From: Bacteroidales bacterium
GTDB taxonomy: Bacteria; Bacteroidota; Bacteroidia; Bacteroidales; F082
Reading direction: 5' to 3'
NCBI GenBank assembly: GCA_017530365.1
Contig: JAFXMK010000021.1
Coordinates: forward strand, 1-47,341
DNA length: 47,341 nt
Below the pieces are notes generated by a model. The model ran no database searches and was not told the DNA's origin. It saw only the letters and a program-made list of their open reading frames with translations. This document shows positions 23,328 through 42,763 of this stretch, one piece after another. The first letter of the stretch is position 1; the number at the start of each line of letters is the position of its first letter. The position numbers and the translations under genes were made by a program.

Positions 23328-24794
23328 ATGCGCCGCTTCTTTACTACTTCTATCTTTATCCTACTTGTTTCCACTTTGTTTGCCTGCTCAACCAGCAAAG
23401 AAAAAAGAAAACCTTTTTGGAAAGTCGCTTTTCCCATGATTGAGACACCTGTCACCTTCACCGGTTCCATCGACGACAAGGATTATCTTTTTTTCATCGA
23501 GCACAGCGACAGCCTGTACGTCACAGGTCATTATATGGCATTGGGGGAAACCATGACGGACACGCTTCCGTTTCAGCTGGAAGCCCGTGGCCGCAATGCC
23601 AGGCTTTATTACAACGGCAAGAAAGAAACTTTCCGTCCGCGTGTCAAATCGATGGATGAACGACATGCTGAGGGATACGCCCGCTTGAGCGTGCTTGGGA
23701 CAGCCTTTTTCCATATTCAAATCCACGAGACGCCTGTTTTCCGGGATGTAGAGAACAAACGCTACCAGGACACCTTATTCGCTGTAGAGGAAACCAGCGA
23801 CATCTGTTATGCAAACGTTCCAGGATTTTGGTCAGCATTGGGCGATGAGACCGATGTCACCGACAAGATTTTCCGGATGACCGAAGCCATCAGCGAGACC
23901 CCCTTGGATCTCCATTTCGACATTTTCCGACCACAAAACGACACCTTGGAAAAGCATCCGTTGGTCATGCTGGTTCATGGTGGAGCGTTCTATTTCGGTT
24001 CAAAAGACGACAAGTCGATAACCCGTTGGTGCCAGCACCTTGCCTCGTTGGGCTATGTGACGGCTTCCATCGACTATCGGATAGGCTTTTTGCCCTCCAT
24101 GGGCAGTATTGGCCGTGCAGGCTACCGCGCCGTGCAGGATGCCCATGCCGCCATGAGGTTTTTAGTTTCACATCAGGAGGAATATGGCATCGACACCTCG
24201 ATGATTTTCGTGGGCGGTGCCAGTGCTGGTGCGATTACCGTTCTCAACCTCGCCTTCATGACCAATGAGACTCGTCCCGAATACACCCATAGCGGCTTAC
24301 TTCGCCCTGATCTCGGTGACATCGACACCTATGGCAACGCCATCAAAGCCGATTTCCGCATCAAGGGCATCATTGACATGTGGGGAGCCATGCCCGACAC
24401 CACCCTGCTCCATGGGCACAACATCCCGATTCTCGCCTTCCATGGCGATGCCGACAACATCGTTCCCTACAGCCACGACTATCCTTTCAGCATCGCTGGT
24501 CCGTTGAAAACACTGTTGGTCGAACCGATGTTCGGTTCATCTTGTATCGTGGATCGTGCGACCAAATTAGGATACGACGCGCAGCTAGTCACCTTTGTGG
24601 GATACAAGCACTCACCTCATGTGAATCCCGAAACCCTATCGGCAAGTTGGAAAGTCAAAGGGGGTGTAATCCTCTCTTCCGACAACAACTCCGTGAATGT
24701 GGCTTGGATTCGAAACGCACCCCAACACAGTATCACGGTATCAGCAGCGATGCCTTACGGCGTTGGTCTTACCGAAACGAAAAACTATCAATGA
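23328..24794 (+). CDS. Lipoprotein alpha/beta-hydrolase (esterase/lipase-like)
   Basis: 488-residue exported enzyme with a lipoprotein signal (MRRFFTTSIFILLVSTLFAC, lipobox LFAC). Residues about 25-165 form a beta-rich domain of no recognised family. The alpha/beta-hydrolase part follows: oxyanion-hole HGGAF, nucleophile elbow GGASAGA (catalytic Ser), acid in HGDADNIVPY and a histidine in GYKHSPH. The pattern resembles carboxylesterase/lipase-type and peptidase S9-like hydrolases; substrate unknown. I reject the upstream TTG at 23301 as start because the signal peptide begins at 23328. Its stop overlaps an in-frame ATG of the next gene. Confidence 0.83.
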   Translation: MRRFFTTSIFILLVSTLFACSTSKEKRKPFWKVAFPMIETPVTFTGSIDDKDYLFFIEHSDSLYVTGHYMALGETMTDTLPFQLEARGRNARLYYNGKKETFRPRVKSMDERHAEGYARLSVLGTAFFHIQIHETPVFRDVENKRYQDTLFAVEETSDICYANVPGFWSALGDETDVTDKIFRMTEAISETPLDLHFDIFRPQNDTLEKHPLVMLVHGGAFYFGSKDDKSITRWCQHLASLGYVTASIDYRIGFLPSMGSIGRAGYRAVQDAHAAMRFLVSHQEEYGIDTSMIFVGGASAGAITVLNLAFMTNETRPEYTHSGLLRPDLGDIDTYGNAIKADFRIKGIIDMWGAMPDTTLLHGHNIPILAFHGDADNIVPYSHDYPFSIAGPLKTLLVEPMFGSSCIVDRATKLGYDAQLVTFVGYKHSPHVNPETLSASWKVKGGVILSSDNNSVNVAWIRNAPQHSITVSAAMPYGVGLTETKNYQ

Positions 24795-24814
24795 ATTATC
24801 AAACACCTATCAAT

Positions 24815-27139
24815 ATGAAAAAAACCTGTTTGTTGATTCTAATCATGATTGCTTTTGTGTCTTTGCCGGCACAAACCACAACAAATCAGCAGCGCCCCAA
24901 AGTCGGCGTTGTACTTGGTGGCGGCGGTGCCAAAGGCGCATCACACATTGGAGCGTTAAAATATTTGGAAGAGATTGGAATTCCGATAGATTATGTGGCG
25001 GGCACCAGCATGGGTTCCATCATCGGTGGACTATATGCCATGGGCTATTCGCCTGATGAGCTCACCCGGCTTATCGCGAGCATGAATTGGTCGGAATACA
25101 TCGGCAACAAGATCAACCGACCTGTAATGTCGGAAGAGACAAGATGGCGCAACAGCAATCTCCAACTCGAGATTCCTTTCAGCCTTGAAAGTTTATTTGA
25201 CAAAGACCCCAACGCTACTTTTATCAGCCAGTTACCAAGCGCCTACGTCAACAACAGCTCGCTGATCAATTTATTCAACGACCTATGCGTTGGCTATCAA
25301 GAGGAGATGGATTTCAACAACTTACCCATCCCGTTTGCTTGCGTGGCGACTAATATTGCCACTGGTGAGGAGGTTGTGCTCCGAAGCGGCAGCGTACCCA
25401 CTGCAATGCGAGCCAGCATGGCGATTCCTGGGGTGTTTTCACCAGTCTCCATCGGCGATATGGTGCTCGTTGACGGAGGCCTGGCGAACAATTTCCCCGC
25501 AGATGTACTTCGTGATATGGGTGCCGACATCATCATCGGTGTAGAAGTCACCTCGGAAAAAAAGATCACCAAGAAGGACATCCAGTCGTTGCCACAACTG
25601 CTAGGACGCCTGGTCGTCAATGGTACCAGCGCCAAGCGTAAGGAGAATCGGGAATTGTGCGACGTTCGAATCGTCCCTGACATCTCTGGTTTCGGAATGC
25701 TCAGCTTCACACCAGCTGCTATCGACACACTCGTCGGCAGAGGCTACAAAAAGGCCGCTGAATACCACGAACAACTGTTAGCCATTAAACAACTCATTGA
25801 CAAAACAGCAGGCGCCCCCATCAAAAAGGAACTGCATGCCCCGAAGTCAGTAAACATATTGGAGCATCCCGTTCTAATAAGCAACATCAGCATTGACGGG
25901 GTAACCGACAAACAAAGCCGATGGCTAATGCGAAAGAGTGGGCTGAAAACCGGAGAAACCTATACAAAAGACGGCCTCGAACGTGCCATAAACATCTATC
26001 GCGGCACAGGTTGTTTCGATGAAGTCACTTATAATGTTAAAGAGCATGATTCCATTCACGGTAAAGACCTGCTATCGGAATCCTACAACTTGAACATTCA
26101 CATGAAGCCAGCCCAGCCCCATGTCTTCGGCGTAGGACTTCACTATGACACCGAAGAAGGAGCAGGGATCCTGATCCATCTTGGATTGAACGAAAAACAA
26201 TTTGGAGGGTCGAAGTTCAACCTAAACGCCAAACTCAGCTACAACCCCCGTATCAACCTTACCTACACCTACTCAAGACCCTCATTGGCCAACTTCAACC
26301 TTGCGTACCACTATAAGAACGACCATTTTAACATGTTGTTTGAAGGAAGAAGGTCGCTCAACCTACGGTATCAGCAACAAAGAGTGAGTGGATCCATCTC
26401 TCAATTTCACCTGACCAATTTCAGCACCAGTGTCGGTTTGGCCTTTACCAGCACGACCTTCGACAGGTTCACCATGGATGAAGGGATTGACACGACCACG
26501 TTTGCATCCTCCCAGATCATCGAACCTTTTGTCAATGTGAAATACGACTGTCTCGATGACGCCTATTTCGCCAAACACGGATTCAACGTCCGTCTGAACG
26601 CCATGTATCATTTTGACACGAAGAAGCATTATTACGGCGATTTTGAAGAAGACGACCCGTACCTTCCTTCTGGCAAAAACTTGGATCTCTACTATGCCTT
26701 CCAGTCCTATCTCACCCCGAACGACGGGAAGTTCACCATCATCCCCCAACTGTACGGACGCTACTTATCCGGCAATACCGAGTATTACCACCTGTGGAAC
26801 AAATTCGGCGGAGAGGTGGAAGGAAGGCATTTTGACCATCAGCTGCCCTTCATCGGATATGCCTCCGTGGAAGGAACGGACCACCATGCTGCGGTGCTGC
26901 GATGCGACCTCCGTTACAACCTCTTCGGAAATCATTATCTGACTGCCATGTACAACTACCTCGTCAACATCACCTGCACGGAATCGTTCGACACGCTGAA
27001 ATACTACGGCATTCATGGAGCTGGAGTGAAGTATTCCTACAACAGTCTCTTAGGTCCGATCTCCTTGACCGTCCATTGGGCAAGGAGGTACCAGGAGAAC
27101 CACTTCGGCGCCTATTTCTCATTCGGATACACTTTTTAA
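24815..27139 (+). CDS. Patatin-like phospholipase fused to an outer-membrane beta-barrel (PlpD type)
   Basis: 774-residue protein with a signal peptide (MKKTCLLILIMIAFVSLPAQ). The patatin domain (about 28-320) has the glycine-rich oxyanion loop GVVLGGGGAKG, the nucleophile in GTSMGS (S65), and the catalytic aspartate in VDGGLANNF (D220). A POTRA-like domain follows (ISNISIDGVTDKQSRWLMRK, about 350-430). The rest is a 16-strand-like barrel resembling BamA/TamA (aromatic-ended strands, final FSFGYTF). This is the type Vd / PlpD layout, in which the lipase sits on or is released from the cell surface. An in-frame ATG at 24791 overlaps the preceding stop; the ATG at 24815 gives the cleaner signal peptide. 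Confidence 0.9.
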   Translation: MKKTCLLILIMIAFVSLPAQTTTNQQRPKVGVVLGGGGAKGASHIGALKYLEEIGIPIDYVAGTSMGSIIGGLYAMGYSPDELTRLIASMNWSEYIGNKINRPVMSEETRWRNSNLQLEIPFSLESLFDKDPNATFISQLPSAYVNNSSLINLFNDLCVGYQEEMDFNNLPIPFACVATNIATGEEVVLRSGSVPTAMRASMAIPGVFSPVSIGDMVLVDGGLANNFPADVLRDMGADIIIGVEVTSEKKITKKDIQSLPQLLGRLVVNGTSAKRKENRELCDVRIVPDISGFGMLSFTPAAIDTLVGRGYKKAAEYHEQLLAIKQLIDKTAGAPIKKELHAPKSVNILEHPVLISNISIDGVTDKQSRWLMRKSGLKTGETYTKDGLERAINIYRGTGCFDEVTYNVKEHDSIHGKDLLSESYNLNIHMKPAQPHVFGVGLHYDTEEGAGILIHLGLNEKQFGGSKFNLNAKLSYNPRINLTYTYSRPSLANFNLAYHYKNDHFNMLFEGRRSLNLRYQQQRVSGSISQFHLTNFSTSVGLAFTSTTFDRFTMDEGIDTTTFASSQIIEPFVNVKYDCLDDAYFAKHGFNVRLNAMYHFDTKKHYYGDFEEDDPYLPSGKNLDLYYAFQSYLTPNDGKFTIIPQLYGRYLSGNTEYYHLWNKFGGEVEGRHFDHQLPFIGYASVEGTDHHAAVLRCDLRYNLFGNHYLTAMYNYLVNITCTESFDTLKYYGIHGAGVKYSYNSLLGPISLTVHWARRYQENHFGAYFSFGYTF

Positions 27140-27169: not shown

Positions 27170-27177
27170 TATATTTG
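27170..27177 (+). promoter_or_regulatory. -7 element for the pyrBI leader
   Basis: TATATTTG (consensus TAnnTTTG) in the gap after the patatin gene. The predicted start of transcription is about 27181, so a 108-base leader would precede pyrB. No TTTG is seen at the -33 distance, so the assignment is moderate. Confidence 0.5.
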
Positions 27178-27184
27178 CATTCCG

Positions 27185-27286
27185 ATGAGGTACGAAAAAG
27201 TATCACCGGTAATCTTAATAAAAGGAATCGAGACGGTTGCTATGAAGCAGCCGTCTTTTTTTTGCAATCAACAAACTAAACTATAG
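27185..27286 (+). CDS. Putative pyrBI leader peptide (33 residues)
   Basis: ATG at 27185 opens a 33-codon frame beginning MRYEKVSPV and ending CNQQTKL, with TAG at 27284-27286, three bases before the pyrB ATG. The frame runs through the whole terminator hairpin and its T-run (which encodes Ser-Phe-Phe). It starts within about five bases of the predicted transcription start and has no ribosome site. In enterobacteria a 44-codon pyrBI leader likewise crosses the attenuator and stops just before pyrB. Expression is unproven; a chance open frame of this length is possible. Confidence 0.4.
   Translation: MRYEKVSPVILIKGIETVAMKQPSFFCNQQTKL
27232..27263 (+). terminator. Intrinsic terminator in the pyrBI leader (probable attenuator)
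   Basis: Ten-base stem GACGGTTGCT / AGCAGCCGTC with one G-U pair and an ATGA loop, followed by eight T residues (27256-27263). It lies between the predicted promoter and pyrB, so pyrB transcription from that promoter must read through. It could also end transcription from the patatin gene. Confidence 0.8.
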
Positions 27287-27289
27287 ATT

Positions 27290-28210
27290 ATGTCCATCTC
27301 ACTGAAAAACCGCAGCTTGATCTCCATCAGCGACTACTCGCCAGAGGAGATCTGCCATGTCCTTGACATCGCCGAGGATTTCGAAAAGAATCCACATCAG
27401 AACTTGCTCAACGGTCGTATCATCGCCTCGTTGTTCTTCGAGCCTTCTACCCGCACCCGTCTGAGCTTCGAGACGGCCATCCAACTTTTGGGCGGTAACG
27501 TCATCGGATTCAGCAGCACCTCAGGTACCAGCGTGCAGAAAGGCGAATCATTAGCCGACACCATCACCATGGTAGCAAGCTATGCCGACCTCATCGTCAT
27601 GCGCAACCCTATCGACGGCTCCGCCCGTCTCGCCTCCGAGGTCTCCAAAGTACCGATCATCAATGCCGGTGACGGTTCCAACCAGCACCCGACCCAGTGC
27701 ATGCTCGACCTCTATTCCATCCGCAAGACCCAAGGCACCCTCGAAAACCTTGAGATTACCTTGGTCGGTGACTTGAAATACGGACGCACCGTACACAGCT
27801 TGGTGGAGGCCATGAGCCACTTCAACGCCAAGTTCAACTTGGTATCCCCTGTCGAGCTCAAGCTCCCCAGAACCGTGAAGCAGCACATCAAGGACGCCCA
27901 TCTGGAATACGAGCAGTTCACCGAGCTGGAGGAAGTCATCCCCCACTCCGACATCATCTACATGACCCGAGTGCAGCGCGAGCGCTTCCCCGATCCACTG
28001 GAATATGAGAAAGTGAAGAACTCCTACGTGCTGCGTAATGCCATGCTGGCCAACGCCAAGCCCAACTGCCGCATCCTGCACCCGCTGCCGCGTGTCAACG
28101 AGATCCATGTGGATGTTGACGCCAACCCGAAGGCTTACTACTTCCAACAGGCTCAGAATGGCGTATATGCACGACAGGCGCTGATTGCGGCTATTCTTGG
28201 GTTAAAATAA
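27290..28210 (+). CDS. pyrB: Aspartate carbamoyltransferase catalytic subunit
   Basis: Second step of de novo pyrimidine synthesis: carbamoyl phosphate plus aspartate to carbamoyl aspartate. The 306 residues carry the carbamoyl-phosphate loop [26 protein letters not shown], the 80s-loop region [30 protein letters not shown] and HPLPRVNEI. Followed by the regulatory subunit gene, so the enzyme is probably the class B dodecamer. It lies behind a terminator hairpin that suggests attenuation by pyrimidine supply. Confidence 0.97.
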
Positions 28211-28242: not shown

Positions 28243-28707
28243 ATGGAAAAAAGAAAAGAACTGATCGTTTCAGCCATTGAGAATGGCACGGTCATCGACC
28301 ATATTCCCGCCGACAAAGTGTATCAAGTCGTCAAGATCTTGGGTTTGGACAAGGCAACCCATCCAGTATATCTCGGCATCAACGTAGAGAGCAAGAAGTT
28401 CGGCACCAAAGGCTTCATCAAGGCCGCTGACAAATACTTCGCCCCGGAAGACGTGAACAAGATCGCGCTGGTAGCCCCCACTGCCTCCATCATCGAAATC
28501 AAGGGGTACGAGGTAGTCAACAAGATGACAGTACAGATCCCCGAACGGATTGAGAAGATCGTCAAGTGCTTCAACCCGAACTGTGTCACCAACAAGGAAC
28601 ACGACATCGCTACGAAGTTCCGCGTGAAATATGTGGATGGCAAGCTCCGTCTGGTATGCCACTACTGCGAGAAATACACCTCGGAAGAGAACATCGAATT
28701 CATCTAA
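28243..28707 (+). CDS. pyrI: Aspartate carbamoyltransferase regulatory subunit
   Basis: Binds CTP/ATP allosterically and couples PyrB trimers. The 154 residues show the allosteric domain with GTVIDHIPADKVYQVVKILG and the zinc domain with four cysteines: C109 and C114 (CFNPNC) and C139 and C142 (CHYC). Length matches E. coli PyrI (153). It presumably gives the Bacteroidetes enzyme end-product control in addition to the leader. Confidence 0.96.
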   Translation: MEKRKELIVSAIENGTVIDHIPADKVYQVVKILGLDKATHPVYLGINVESKKFGTKGFIKAADKYFAPEDVNKIALVAPTASIIEIKGYEVVNKMTVQIPERIEKIVKCFNPNCVTNKEHDIATKFRVKYVDGKLRLVCHYCEKYTSEENIEFI

Positions 28708-28719
28708 GCATCGGCTGCC

Positions 28720-29268
28720 ATGAAAAAAACACTCTGGCTGTTATTGTGCATCGTGGCCATCATTGTATTATGGGGTGTTTCCAAATACAACGGCTTCGTT
28801 AAGACAGAGGAAAAGATGACCCAGGCTTGGTCGCAGGTAGAGAACGTCTATCAGCGAAGGATGGACTTGATTCCCAACCTCGTTGCGGTTGTAAGGTCCT
28901 ACACCGATTATGAGAATAAGACGCTGGTTGATATCGTGGAAGCCAGAGCCCAGCAAGCGACTGCCACAAAGATCGACCCCGAGTCCGTGACACAAGAACA
29001 GCTGTCGGGCTTTGAAAACGCCCAACAGCTGCTCGGTGATGCTGTCAACGATGTCATCGTTTCGATAGAGAACTATCCCGACTTGAAGGCTGTTGAATCC
29101 TACCAGACCTTCTTGGCCCAATATGAAGGGTCGGAGAACCGTATCCTCATAGAACGCAAGCGTTACAACGAGATGGTTCAGGACTACAACAAGTCCGTCC
29201 GCAGTTTCCCTGGCAACCTCATAGCCGGATGGTTCGGCTTTGAGCCGAAACCCTATTTTAAAGGTTAG
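28720..29268 (+). CDS. LemA family protein
   Basis: 182 residues with one N-terminal membrane anchor (MKKTLWLLLCIVAIIVLWGV). It continues with the LemA-type helical domain: MTQAWSQVENVYQRRMDLIPNLVAVVRSY, NAQQLLGDAVNDVIVSIENYPDL, and the end FPGNLIAGWFGFEPKPYF. Function of LemA proteins is poorly known; they often neighbour a TPM-domain gene, which is absent here. Twelve bases after pyrI on the same strand; possibly transcribed with pyrBI. Confidence 0.9.
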   Translation: MKKTLWLLLCIVAIIVLWGVSKYNGFVKTEEKMTQAWSQVENVYQRRMDLIPNLVAVVRSYTDYENKTLVDIVEARAQQATATKIDPESVTQEQLSGFENAQQLLGDAVNDVIVSIENYPDLKAVESYQTFLAQYEGSENRILIERKRYNEMVQDYNKSVRSFPGNLIAGWFGFEPKPYFKG

Positions 29269-41059: not shown

Positions 41060-41132
41060 CACGGGCGGAAAGGCTCGAACTCTCGACACTCGGTTTTGGA
41101 GACCGATGCTCTACCAACTGAGCTACGCCCGT
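41060..41132 (-). tRNA. tRNA-Trp (CCA anticodon)
   Basis: Cloverleaf on the minus strand with acceptor ACGGGCG / CGCCCGT, D-arm GCTCAGTTGGTAGAGC, anticodon loop CTCCAAA (anticodon CCA) and T-arm with GTTCGAG. The CCA tail is not encoded. Lies between tuf and secE. Confidence 0.95.
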
Positions 41133-41184
41133 AGATAAGGGAGGCCCTTTCAGACCTCCCTTGTAATTTGATCAACGTTTTTGA

Positions 41185-42375
<1,191 letters not shown>

Positions 42376-42424
42376 TTTATTTCAAATTTATTTAAGGTTA
42401 CTGATTCCTATAAACACTAAAGTG

Positions 42425-42496
42425 AGCCGATGGGGAGAATTGAACTCCCGACCCCTTCCTTACCAAGGAAGTGCTCTACCGCTGAGCTACATCGGC
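42425..42496 (-). tRNA. tRNA-Thr (GGT anticodon)
   Basis: Minus-strand cloverleaf: acceptor GCCGATG / CATCGGC, D-arm GCTCAGCGGTAGAGC, anticodon stem-loop CTTCCTTGGTAAGGAAG with anticodon GGT, T-loop GTTCAATTC. Last of the four tRNAs before tuf. Confidence 0.95.
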
Positions 42497-42511
42497 TTTT
42501 GTCTTTTTCAG

Positions 42512-42584
42512 AGCGGAAGACGGGGCTCGAACCCGCCACCTAAAGCTTGGAAGGCTTTCGCTCTGCCAAATGAGCTACTTCCGC
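42512..42584 (-). tRNA. tRNA-Gly (TCC anticodon)
   Basis: Minus-strand cloverleaf: acceptor GCGGAAG / CTTCCGC, D-arm GCTCATTTGGCAGAGC, anticodon loop CTTCCAA with anticodon TCC, T-loop GTTCGAG. Confidence 0.95.
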
Positions 42585-42591
42585 GTGACTG

Positions 42592-42673
42592 TGGGGGAGG
42601 GTGGACTCGAACCACCGAACTCATCCGAGGACAGATTTACAGTCTGTTGCAATTGCCACTATGCGACTCCCCC
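42592..42673 (-). tRNA. tRNA-Tyr (GTA anticodon)
   Basis: Minus-strand class II tRNA with a long variable arm. Acceptor GGGGGAG / CTCCCCC, anticodon stem-loop CAGACTGTAAATCTG with anticodon GTA, T-loop GTTCGAG. Confidence 0.95.
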
Positions 42674-42690
42674 GTGTTTGGTCAACTCTG

Positions 42691-42763
42691 AGCCGGTAGA
42701 CGGACTCGAACCGCCGACAGGCTGATTACAAATCAGCTACTCTACCAACTGAGTTATACCGGC
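42691..42763 (-). tRNA. tRNA-Thr (TGT anticodon)
   Basis: Minus-strand cloverleaf: acceptor GCCGGTA / TACCGGC, D-arm ACTCAGTTGGTAGAGT, anticodon loop TTTGTAA with anticodon TGT, T-loop GTTCGAG. First gene of the tRNA-tuf transcript. Confidence 0.95.

Follow-up and report, generated by a model that had tools for sequence, protein, structure and literature searches.

The pyrBI genes of the Bacteroidales genome studied here are preceded by a short leader reading frame that runs through an intrinsic transcription terminator and ends just ahead of pyrB. With a probability of roughly 0.7, comparison with related genomes and with the E. coli pyrL/pyrBI system suggests that this is a pyrBI-type translation-coupled transcription attenuator working in the same manner, and from that analogy we infer translation of the leader, its coupling to transcription and UTP as the signal. 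The features recognized in the window (i.e. the whole 47,341-nt stretch of DNA that was analysed) are:

27170-27177 (+), promoter -7 box TATATTTG (TAnnTTTG type), read from the sequence
27182-27185 (+), predicted transcription start zone (C, C, G, A), giving a 5' UTR of 0-3 nt, based on published Flavobacterium and B. thetaiotaomicron data
27182-27209 (+), 5'-terminal hairpin P1 (arms 27182-27188 and 27203-27209) with the leader start codon inside, from a 57-sequence alignment
27189-27204 (+), GGTAC/GTATC hairpin (arms 27189-27193 and 27200-27204), an alternative register within P1, not conserved, from the fold and the alignment
27185-27286 (+), leader reading frame of 33 codons plus TAG, crossing the terminator, from the sequence and its openness in relatives
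27224-27229 (+), GGAATC, seemingly what is left of the 5' arm of a second stem (P2), from the alignment, T fraction and tree
27231-27263 (+), intrinsic terminator, a 10-bp hairpin (27231-27256) with T8 (27256-27263), from the sequence and the fold
27290-28210 (+), pyrB, aspartate carbamoyltransferase catalytic subunit (TIGR00670, 367.4 bits, cut-off 236.95)
28243-28707 (+), pyrI, aspartate carbamoyltransferase regulatory subunit (TIGR00240, 154.5 bits, cut-off 148.55)

The leader ATG (27185-27187) is situated 7 bases 3' of the box and opens a frame of 33 sense codons (MRYEKVSPVILIKGIETVAMKQPSFFCNQQTKL) closed by TAG (27284-27286), which leaves 3 bases (27287-27289) before the pyrB ATG at 27290. 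The terminator stem comprises 10 bp (27231-27240 paired with 27247-27256), and the fold of the 120-nt region 27181-27300 (z = -3.24) was equalled in stability by 0 of 200 shuffles. The elements named in an earlier sequence-only reading of this DNA, i.e. the box, the 10-bp hairpin with T8, pyrB downstream, and a 33-codon frame passing through hairpin and T-run to a stop 3 bases before the pyrB ATG, were all found as claimed, and both PyrB and PyrI scored above their NCBIfam cut-offs. In the window's genome, the start motif TANNTTTGNNNYYCGATG has a single occurrence, at the pyrB leader; the spacing from box to ATG is not unique by itself, as TANNTTTGN7ATG has 38 matches (vs 12 for a reversed control pattern).

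The product of the gene upstream (24380-27139, +), 919 aa long, gave a patatin-like phospholipase match that stays under the curated cut-off; 30 nt separate the end of this gene from the pyrB promoter box. The gene 3' of pyrI (28720-29268, +) matches the MamQ model below its cut-off, and its product is presumably a LemA-type protein. Five tRNA genes are clustered at 41060-42763 (-).

Proposed mechanism and comparison with E. coli pyrL

In the model established for E. coli pyrBI, low UTP pauses RNA polymerase, which lets the ribosome close the gap and leads to pyrBI expression. At the leader described here, RNA polymerase would start a few bases 5' of the leader ATG; a ribosome following closely on the leader would cover the 5' arm of the terminator and permit read-through into pyrBI, and with a lagging ribosome the hairpin would form and transcription would end at T8. 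The full form of the leader, seen in relatives outside the window's own clade (a group of ten leaders), has in addition P2 and a pyrimidine-rich tract 21-32 nt before the terminator. If these relatives behave like E. coli, low UTP would make their polymerase pause, giving the ribosome time to catch up and allowing expression of pyrBI.

The pyrL frame of E. coli K-12 (44 codons) likewise crosses a terminator with T8, has the same 3-nt gap between its stop and pyrB as the window copy, and is followed by pyrB and pyrI. Its ATG lies 89 nt from the hairpin (own count), vs 87 nt in 13 of 19 type A and 90 nt in all 11 type B full-form relatives, and its terminator is preceded by a hairpin and a pyrimidine-rich tract, an arrangement shared with the full-form relatives. 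The differences are: (i) the predicted 5' UTR of 0-3 nt and a leader ATG that sits within a 5' hairpin, (ii) a peptide unlike pyrL by eye, and (iii) the lack, in the window copy, of the upstream hairpin, of the U-rich tract and of UUU among the first transcribed bases. For pyrL, tight coupling across the leader was reported to be required to prevent terminator formation (PMC5021804), pausing is described as coupling ribosome and polymerase (PMC4824070), and a U-run at the transcription start permits reiterative transcription as a second control of pyrBI (PMC6245113). Such a U-run is not present at the transcription start in the window, where the predicted first bases are CCGAUGA.

The leader frame in related genomes

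An order-level search gave a pyrB match in 187 of 197 genomes, and upstream DNA was compared for the best 150 of these 187 (the window's own, 29 and 120 loci); the first relative set contained 80 named loci. With identical regions counted once, 223 distinct upstream regions were scored (not including L065 and L190, which were masked or not long enough). A terminator reached the threshold in 138 and was not found in 85 (L092, just under the threshold, has one by eye). A TAnnTTTG box lay upstream of the terminator in 82 of the 138, the other 56 being without it, and in 79 of these 82 an ATG frame reached the hairpin or ended at most 12 nt before it. The wider clade of the window comprises 68 loci including the window itself, of which 63 are distinct and assessable once truncated (L048, L065, L081) and duplicate (L039, L097) loci are set aside. 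The layout of box, 7 bases, ATG and terminator is present in 57 of the 63, and these 57 leaders, chosen by that layout, were used in the analyses below. The remaining six are L034 (terminator, no box) and L036, L043, L045, L054 and L074 (no pyrB attenuator). In other orders of the phylum, a match at 1e-40 was found in 22 of 137 genomes, always with at most 43% identity.

The leader frame remains without a stop as far as the hairpin in 56 of the 57 leaders, vs 16 and 30 for the other two frames and 16.8 expected from dinucleotide shuffles, and through the T-run in 49 (other frames 10 and 13, expectation 12.8), these counts not being independent, as the leaders share ancestry. Among the eight frames that fall short of the T-run end, seven stop within the hairpin and one (L035) before it. 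Since 56 open frames compare with 16.8 expected, the layout goes beyond chance, and the leader observation is real. Loss of the frame with the hairpin kept, which the sequence-only reading had named as evidence that would speak against it, is not the pattern seen, in view of these 56 of 57 leaders and of 22 of 25 from other families (see below). In line with that reading, relatives conserve a leader frame that crosses the terminator in front of pyrBI, and the transcript bearing it is predicted to be nearly leaderless.

These figures bear on the view that the leader yields an ordinary 5'-derived small RNA, or is an unregulated partial terminator, and that openness follows from base composition. 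Small RNAs with their own start and terminator, some of them from 5' UTRs, have been described in B. thetaiotaomicron (PMC7366714), and in the window's own clade the frame is loosely kept (it reaches the T-run in 5 of 10 leaders). However, dinucleotide shuffles and the other two frames are open far less often, and the layout recurs in other families with different peptides, so that this view is very unlikely.

In two groups of equal-length leaders, sequences bearing a stop numbered 0 of 14 and 0 of 11, vs column-shuffle means of 5.0 and 3.1; this test is inflated by shared ancestry, since frames +1 and +2 were also poorer in stops than their column shuffles (P 0.02-0.044). Substitutions at the three codon positions amounted to 155/261/212 (type A), 204/221/233 (type B) and 4/12/12 (type C), with no excess of third-position changes over position 2. 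As codon position 3 is no freer than the other two, openness has been kept and the peptide has not: selection appears to act on translatability and not on the peptide sequence. A functional leader peptide was rejected, the codon-position signal being absent. In the length-shifted relative L064, the terminator is still crossed, in another frame.

The comparison of pyrB upstream regions across Bacteroidales that the sequence-only reading had proposed confirmed retention of the hairpin and the open frame, but the stop position relative to pyrB proved not to be fixed, with a range that extends from L035, where it falls immediately 5' of the hairpin, to 28 nt into pyrB. The same range, together with openness to the hairpin, weighs against re-initiation, in which the leader frame would serve pyrB translation and the terminator would act as a brake, either constant or under a control of its own. 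For leader genes, re-initiation has been put forward in the literature as a hypothesis (PMC4833913), and the stop precedes pyrB by 3 nt in the window and by 4 nt in 11 of 19 type A relatives; on balance, we regard it as a distinctly unlikely explanation.

A trp-type attenuator, in which stalling at particular codons would switch antiterminator and terminator hairpins, could draw on the leader peptide, the terminator and the extra hairpins that exist here, and the amino-acid attenuators (trp, his, ilv) have a leader ORF and a terminator in common with the present system. In the latter, however, the ORF enters or crosses the terminator, with the stop mostly within or beyond the hairpin, whereas amino-acid leaders are reported to end more than 20 nt before their terminators (PMC4824070). 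Furthermore, upstream pairing of the terminator arm gains at most 3.6 kcal (median 0.8; the hairpin itself has a median energy of -12.1 kcal; n = 57 leaders), and codon positions give no sign of a conserved peptide. The trp-type antiterminator was rejected, as none of the 57 leaders has a strong one, and this mode of control has hardly any chance of being the correct one.

Stems of the leader and the shortened form in the window

P1 is formed by alignment columns 1-7 and 22-28 (CCGATGA paired with TCAYCGG, in the window TCACCGG). In the 57 sequences, 89.0% of its cells are paired, with changes on both sides of pairs 1-28 (2 sequences) and 2-27 (7 sequences), while pairs 4-25 and 7-22 are broken in 15 and 23 sequences, respectively; for the 7-bp core of the terminator helix the proportion is 96.0%. 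When P1 and the terminator are taken jointly, sliding the partners lowers pairing from 92.5% to 14-59%. Percentage paired, cells changed on both sides and covariation score exceed the shuffles (0/500), and the numbers of altered pairs and of kinds of pair are not above them (381/500 and 392/500 reach the observed values). P1 is strong where the 5' arm starts with CC (43/44 at P < 0.05) and weak where it starts with TT (5/13), and a CC/TT swap has little effect on the TT arms (mean score 10.8 vs 11.5). The 5-bp GGTAC/GTATC hairpin pointed out in the sequence-only reading is present in the window, but the pair is not kept in relatives (by eye on the alignment), which conserve P1 instead.

In Flavobacterium, TAnnTTTG is found at -12 to -5 (PMC9723704), which would place the start in the window at C27182, and the predominance of A (45%) and G (41%) among transcription start sites of B. 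thetaiotaomicron (PMC7366714) would favour G27184 or A27185. Either way, the predicted 5' UTR of the leader is 0-3 nt, i.e. the transcript would be nearly leaderless. A nearly leaderless leader ORF and a start codon inside the 5'-terminal hairpin are the two predicted unusual features of this clade.

The energy of P1 varies with the first transcribed base in the eight leaders computed (in L046, -6.9 kcal from the first C and 0.0 from A); in the window the shift is small (-6.4 to -4.8 kcal), because GGTAC/GTATC forms instead. In E. coli pyrC-type control, start sites are selected in a nucleotide-sensitive manner and a hairpin at the 5' end can hide the start codon of the enzyme gene. The leaders described here resemble it in having an extreme 5' hairpin whose strength depends on a start at C or later (L046), and differ in that the hairpin would hide the start codon of the leader and not that of the enzyme gene, in the small energy shift of the window copy and in that the start sites are predicted only. 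Start-site choice and UTP pausing might act together on a single, nearly leaderless transcript and make it a double nucleotide sensor, which is a speculative and rather unlikely extension of the attenuator. CTP (UTP in the TT clades) would set whether transcription starts on the two pyrimidines before the ATG: a pyrimidine start would complete P1 and hide the leader ATG, so that no ribosome would follow and the terminator would form, and a start 1-3 bases later would leave P1 weak, the leader translated and pyrBI read through. UTP-dependent pausing at the U-rich tract would be a second layer in full-form relatives, and the window's own clade would use the start-site layer alone.

P2, a second stem ending 21-32 nt before the terminator, was recognized by eye in 46 of the 47 leaders outside the window's own clade (not in L095). 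As a best stem is by construction reported for each of the 47 leaders and P2 is individually significant in 21 of 47 (P <= 0.05; P <= 0.01 in 8 of 47), its support comes from place and recurrence, judged by eye. The stem sequence varies by group (e.g. GGAATC/GGTTCC, GGAA/TTCC, GATTTAC/GTAAATC and GGTTTAC/GTAAACC). The tract after P2 has a mean T fraction of 0.48 in the 47 leaders, over which T reaches 0.53-0.59 in the 20 nt before the hairpin.

The hairpin and the U-rich pause tract before the terminator, present in relatives, are absent in the window and its own clade, where of P2 only GGAATC is left, directly before the terminator, and T is 0.10-0.33 (n = 10). In the pyrB tree, this clade is grouped with L034, L036, L039 and L043 (support 1.0) and nested in full-layout lineages, and the loss of P2 and the U-rich tract therefore looks derived. 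Judged by its sequence, the window copy is a shortened, reduced member of the attenuator type, and it probably still attenuates. UTP sensing is doubtful in the window, since its clade is without the second hairpin and the U-rich tract, and UTP control of this copy is given somewhat less than even odds. Of the UTP-sensing layout proposed in the sequence-only reading, the crossing leader of pyrBI type stands, but UTP sensing by a copy with P2 and the U-rich tract deleted is weakly founded.

In L036 and L043, the promoter and a P1-like hairpin are kept and the terminator is missing, so that the old leader ATG is now 37 nt before the pyrB ATG, in another frame. The two loci are on separate branches of the pyrB tree within the clade, which hints that the terminator may have been lost twice separately. 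In L045, L054 and L074, the promoter stands directly ahead of pyrB, with no leader ATG and no attenuator, in a group that otherwise has the full layout.

Conservation of P1 pairing and recurrence of P2 at one place would also suit an RNA ligand or a protein (a riboswitch or a PyrR-like regulator) acting via P1 or P2, the open frame being incidental. This alternative, which leaves frame openness unexplained, has a very small chance: P2 differs in sequence among groups and is missing from the window's own clade, and neither an Rfam match at gathering score nor a PyrR above cut-off in 30 genomes was found. At gathering score, Rfam gave only the five tRNAs in the window and nothing in nine related loci; the best match below threshold at the leader stretch was L20_leader (23 bits, cut-off 58.7). 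PyrR control was rejected, as the NF003549 cut-off was passed in 0 of 30 genomes (weak matches below it occurred in 22). The PyrR attenuators of Gram-positive bacteria share with the present system a terminator ahead of a pyrimidine gene; here, PyrR does not reach the cut-off in the 30 genomes and strong antiterminator pairing is absent.

Other families, other pyrimidine genes and earlier descriptions

Outside the genus-type set, a crossing ORF was found in 22 of 25 pyrB leaders having a box and a terminator, vs 5.3 expected, and the peptides of these other families differ. Among the non-crossing leaders, L109 has a mis-assigned box (its ORF was found in separate region scoring) and in L131 the box lies within a frame open from the region start. 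Of the 22 crossing leaders, (i) L098, L234 and L247 have the box in a frame open from the region start, possibly an upstream gene, (ii) L215 and L249 have short ORFs (12 and 11 codons, respectively), and (iii) ten (L101, L205, L215, L224, L227, L236, L241, L247, L249 and L256) have a T fraction of only 0.12-0.32 before the hairpin. In view of these box-frame doubts, short ORFs and low T, the crossing leaders of other families may not all act alike. Hairpins at the 5' end are patchy in these families (z <= -1.5 in five of the 19 examined, i.e. L099, L101, L102, L136 and L205). A control with other box-terminator pairs in related loci gave five pairs, three of which are themselves pyrB leaders (L260-L262); one of the remaining two has a crossing ORF.

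In many of the boxless terminator regions that were read, the upstream gene ends just before the terminator, which may therefore merely serve that gene. By eye, the genes preceding pyrB in L113, L118, L122, L134, L135 and comparable loci resemble one another, with ends that are ...DFVKKHNLK-like or Cys-rich, and are followed by a terminator whose stem resembles GGCGACT/AGTCGCC.

The attenuator layout is not shared by pyrE, which by eye has a plain promoter and no terminator in the seven loci inspected. A regulon was rejected as an explanation: the start motif is unique in the genome, pyrE is without the layout in those seven loci and carA is below cut-off in 10 genus genomes.

For Bacteroidetes, the open-access literature yielded no earlier account of a leader or attenuator ahead of pyrB or pyrBI, and the statement in the sequence-only reading that none was known agrees with this. 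As far as that literature was searched, a pyrBI-type translation-coupled attenuator would be new for Bacteroidales. Related observations are the sORFs in long 5' UTRs of B. thetaiotaomicron, described as "reminiscent of leader peptides" (e.g. BT_4401; PMC7366714), and leader-peptide attenuation of amino-acid operons in Flavobacterium (PMC9723704). If the proposed mechanism is correct, a mode of control known from enterobacteria is found again in Bacteroidales, where the peptides are different, the transcripts seem to have their first base at or very near the start codon, and Shine-Dalgarno sequences are said to be lacking from the phylum (PMC9723704). Ribosome-polymerase coupling in Bacteroidota, on which no paper was found by title among those that the open-access search gave, would then become directly testable with one reporter, and pyrBI would have a candidate pyrimidine control where PyrR is not above cut-off.

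Not only carA (TIGR01368) but also carB (TIGR01369) is below cut-off in all 10 genus genomes (G000 and nine others; completeness 62-100%), and both genes were found in 3 of 5 other genomes of the order. Finally, pyrB is present on two contigs of G020 (C13 and C14) and on two contigs of isolate RGIG7248 (L038 and L039, with identical leaders), these pairs being either an assembly duplication or a real second copy.
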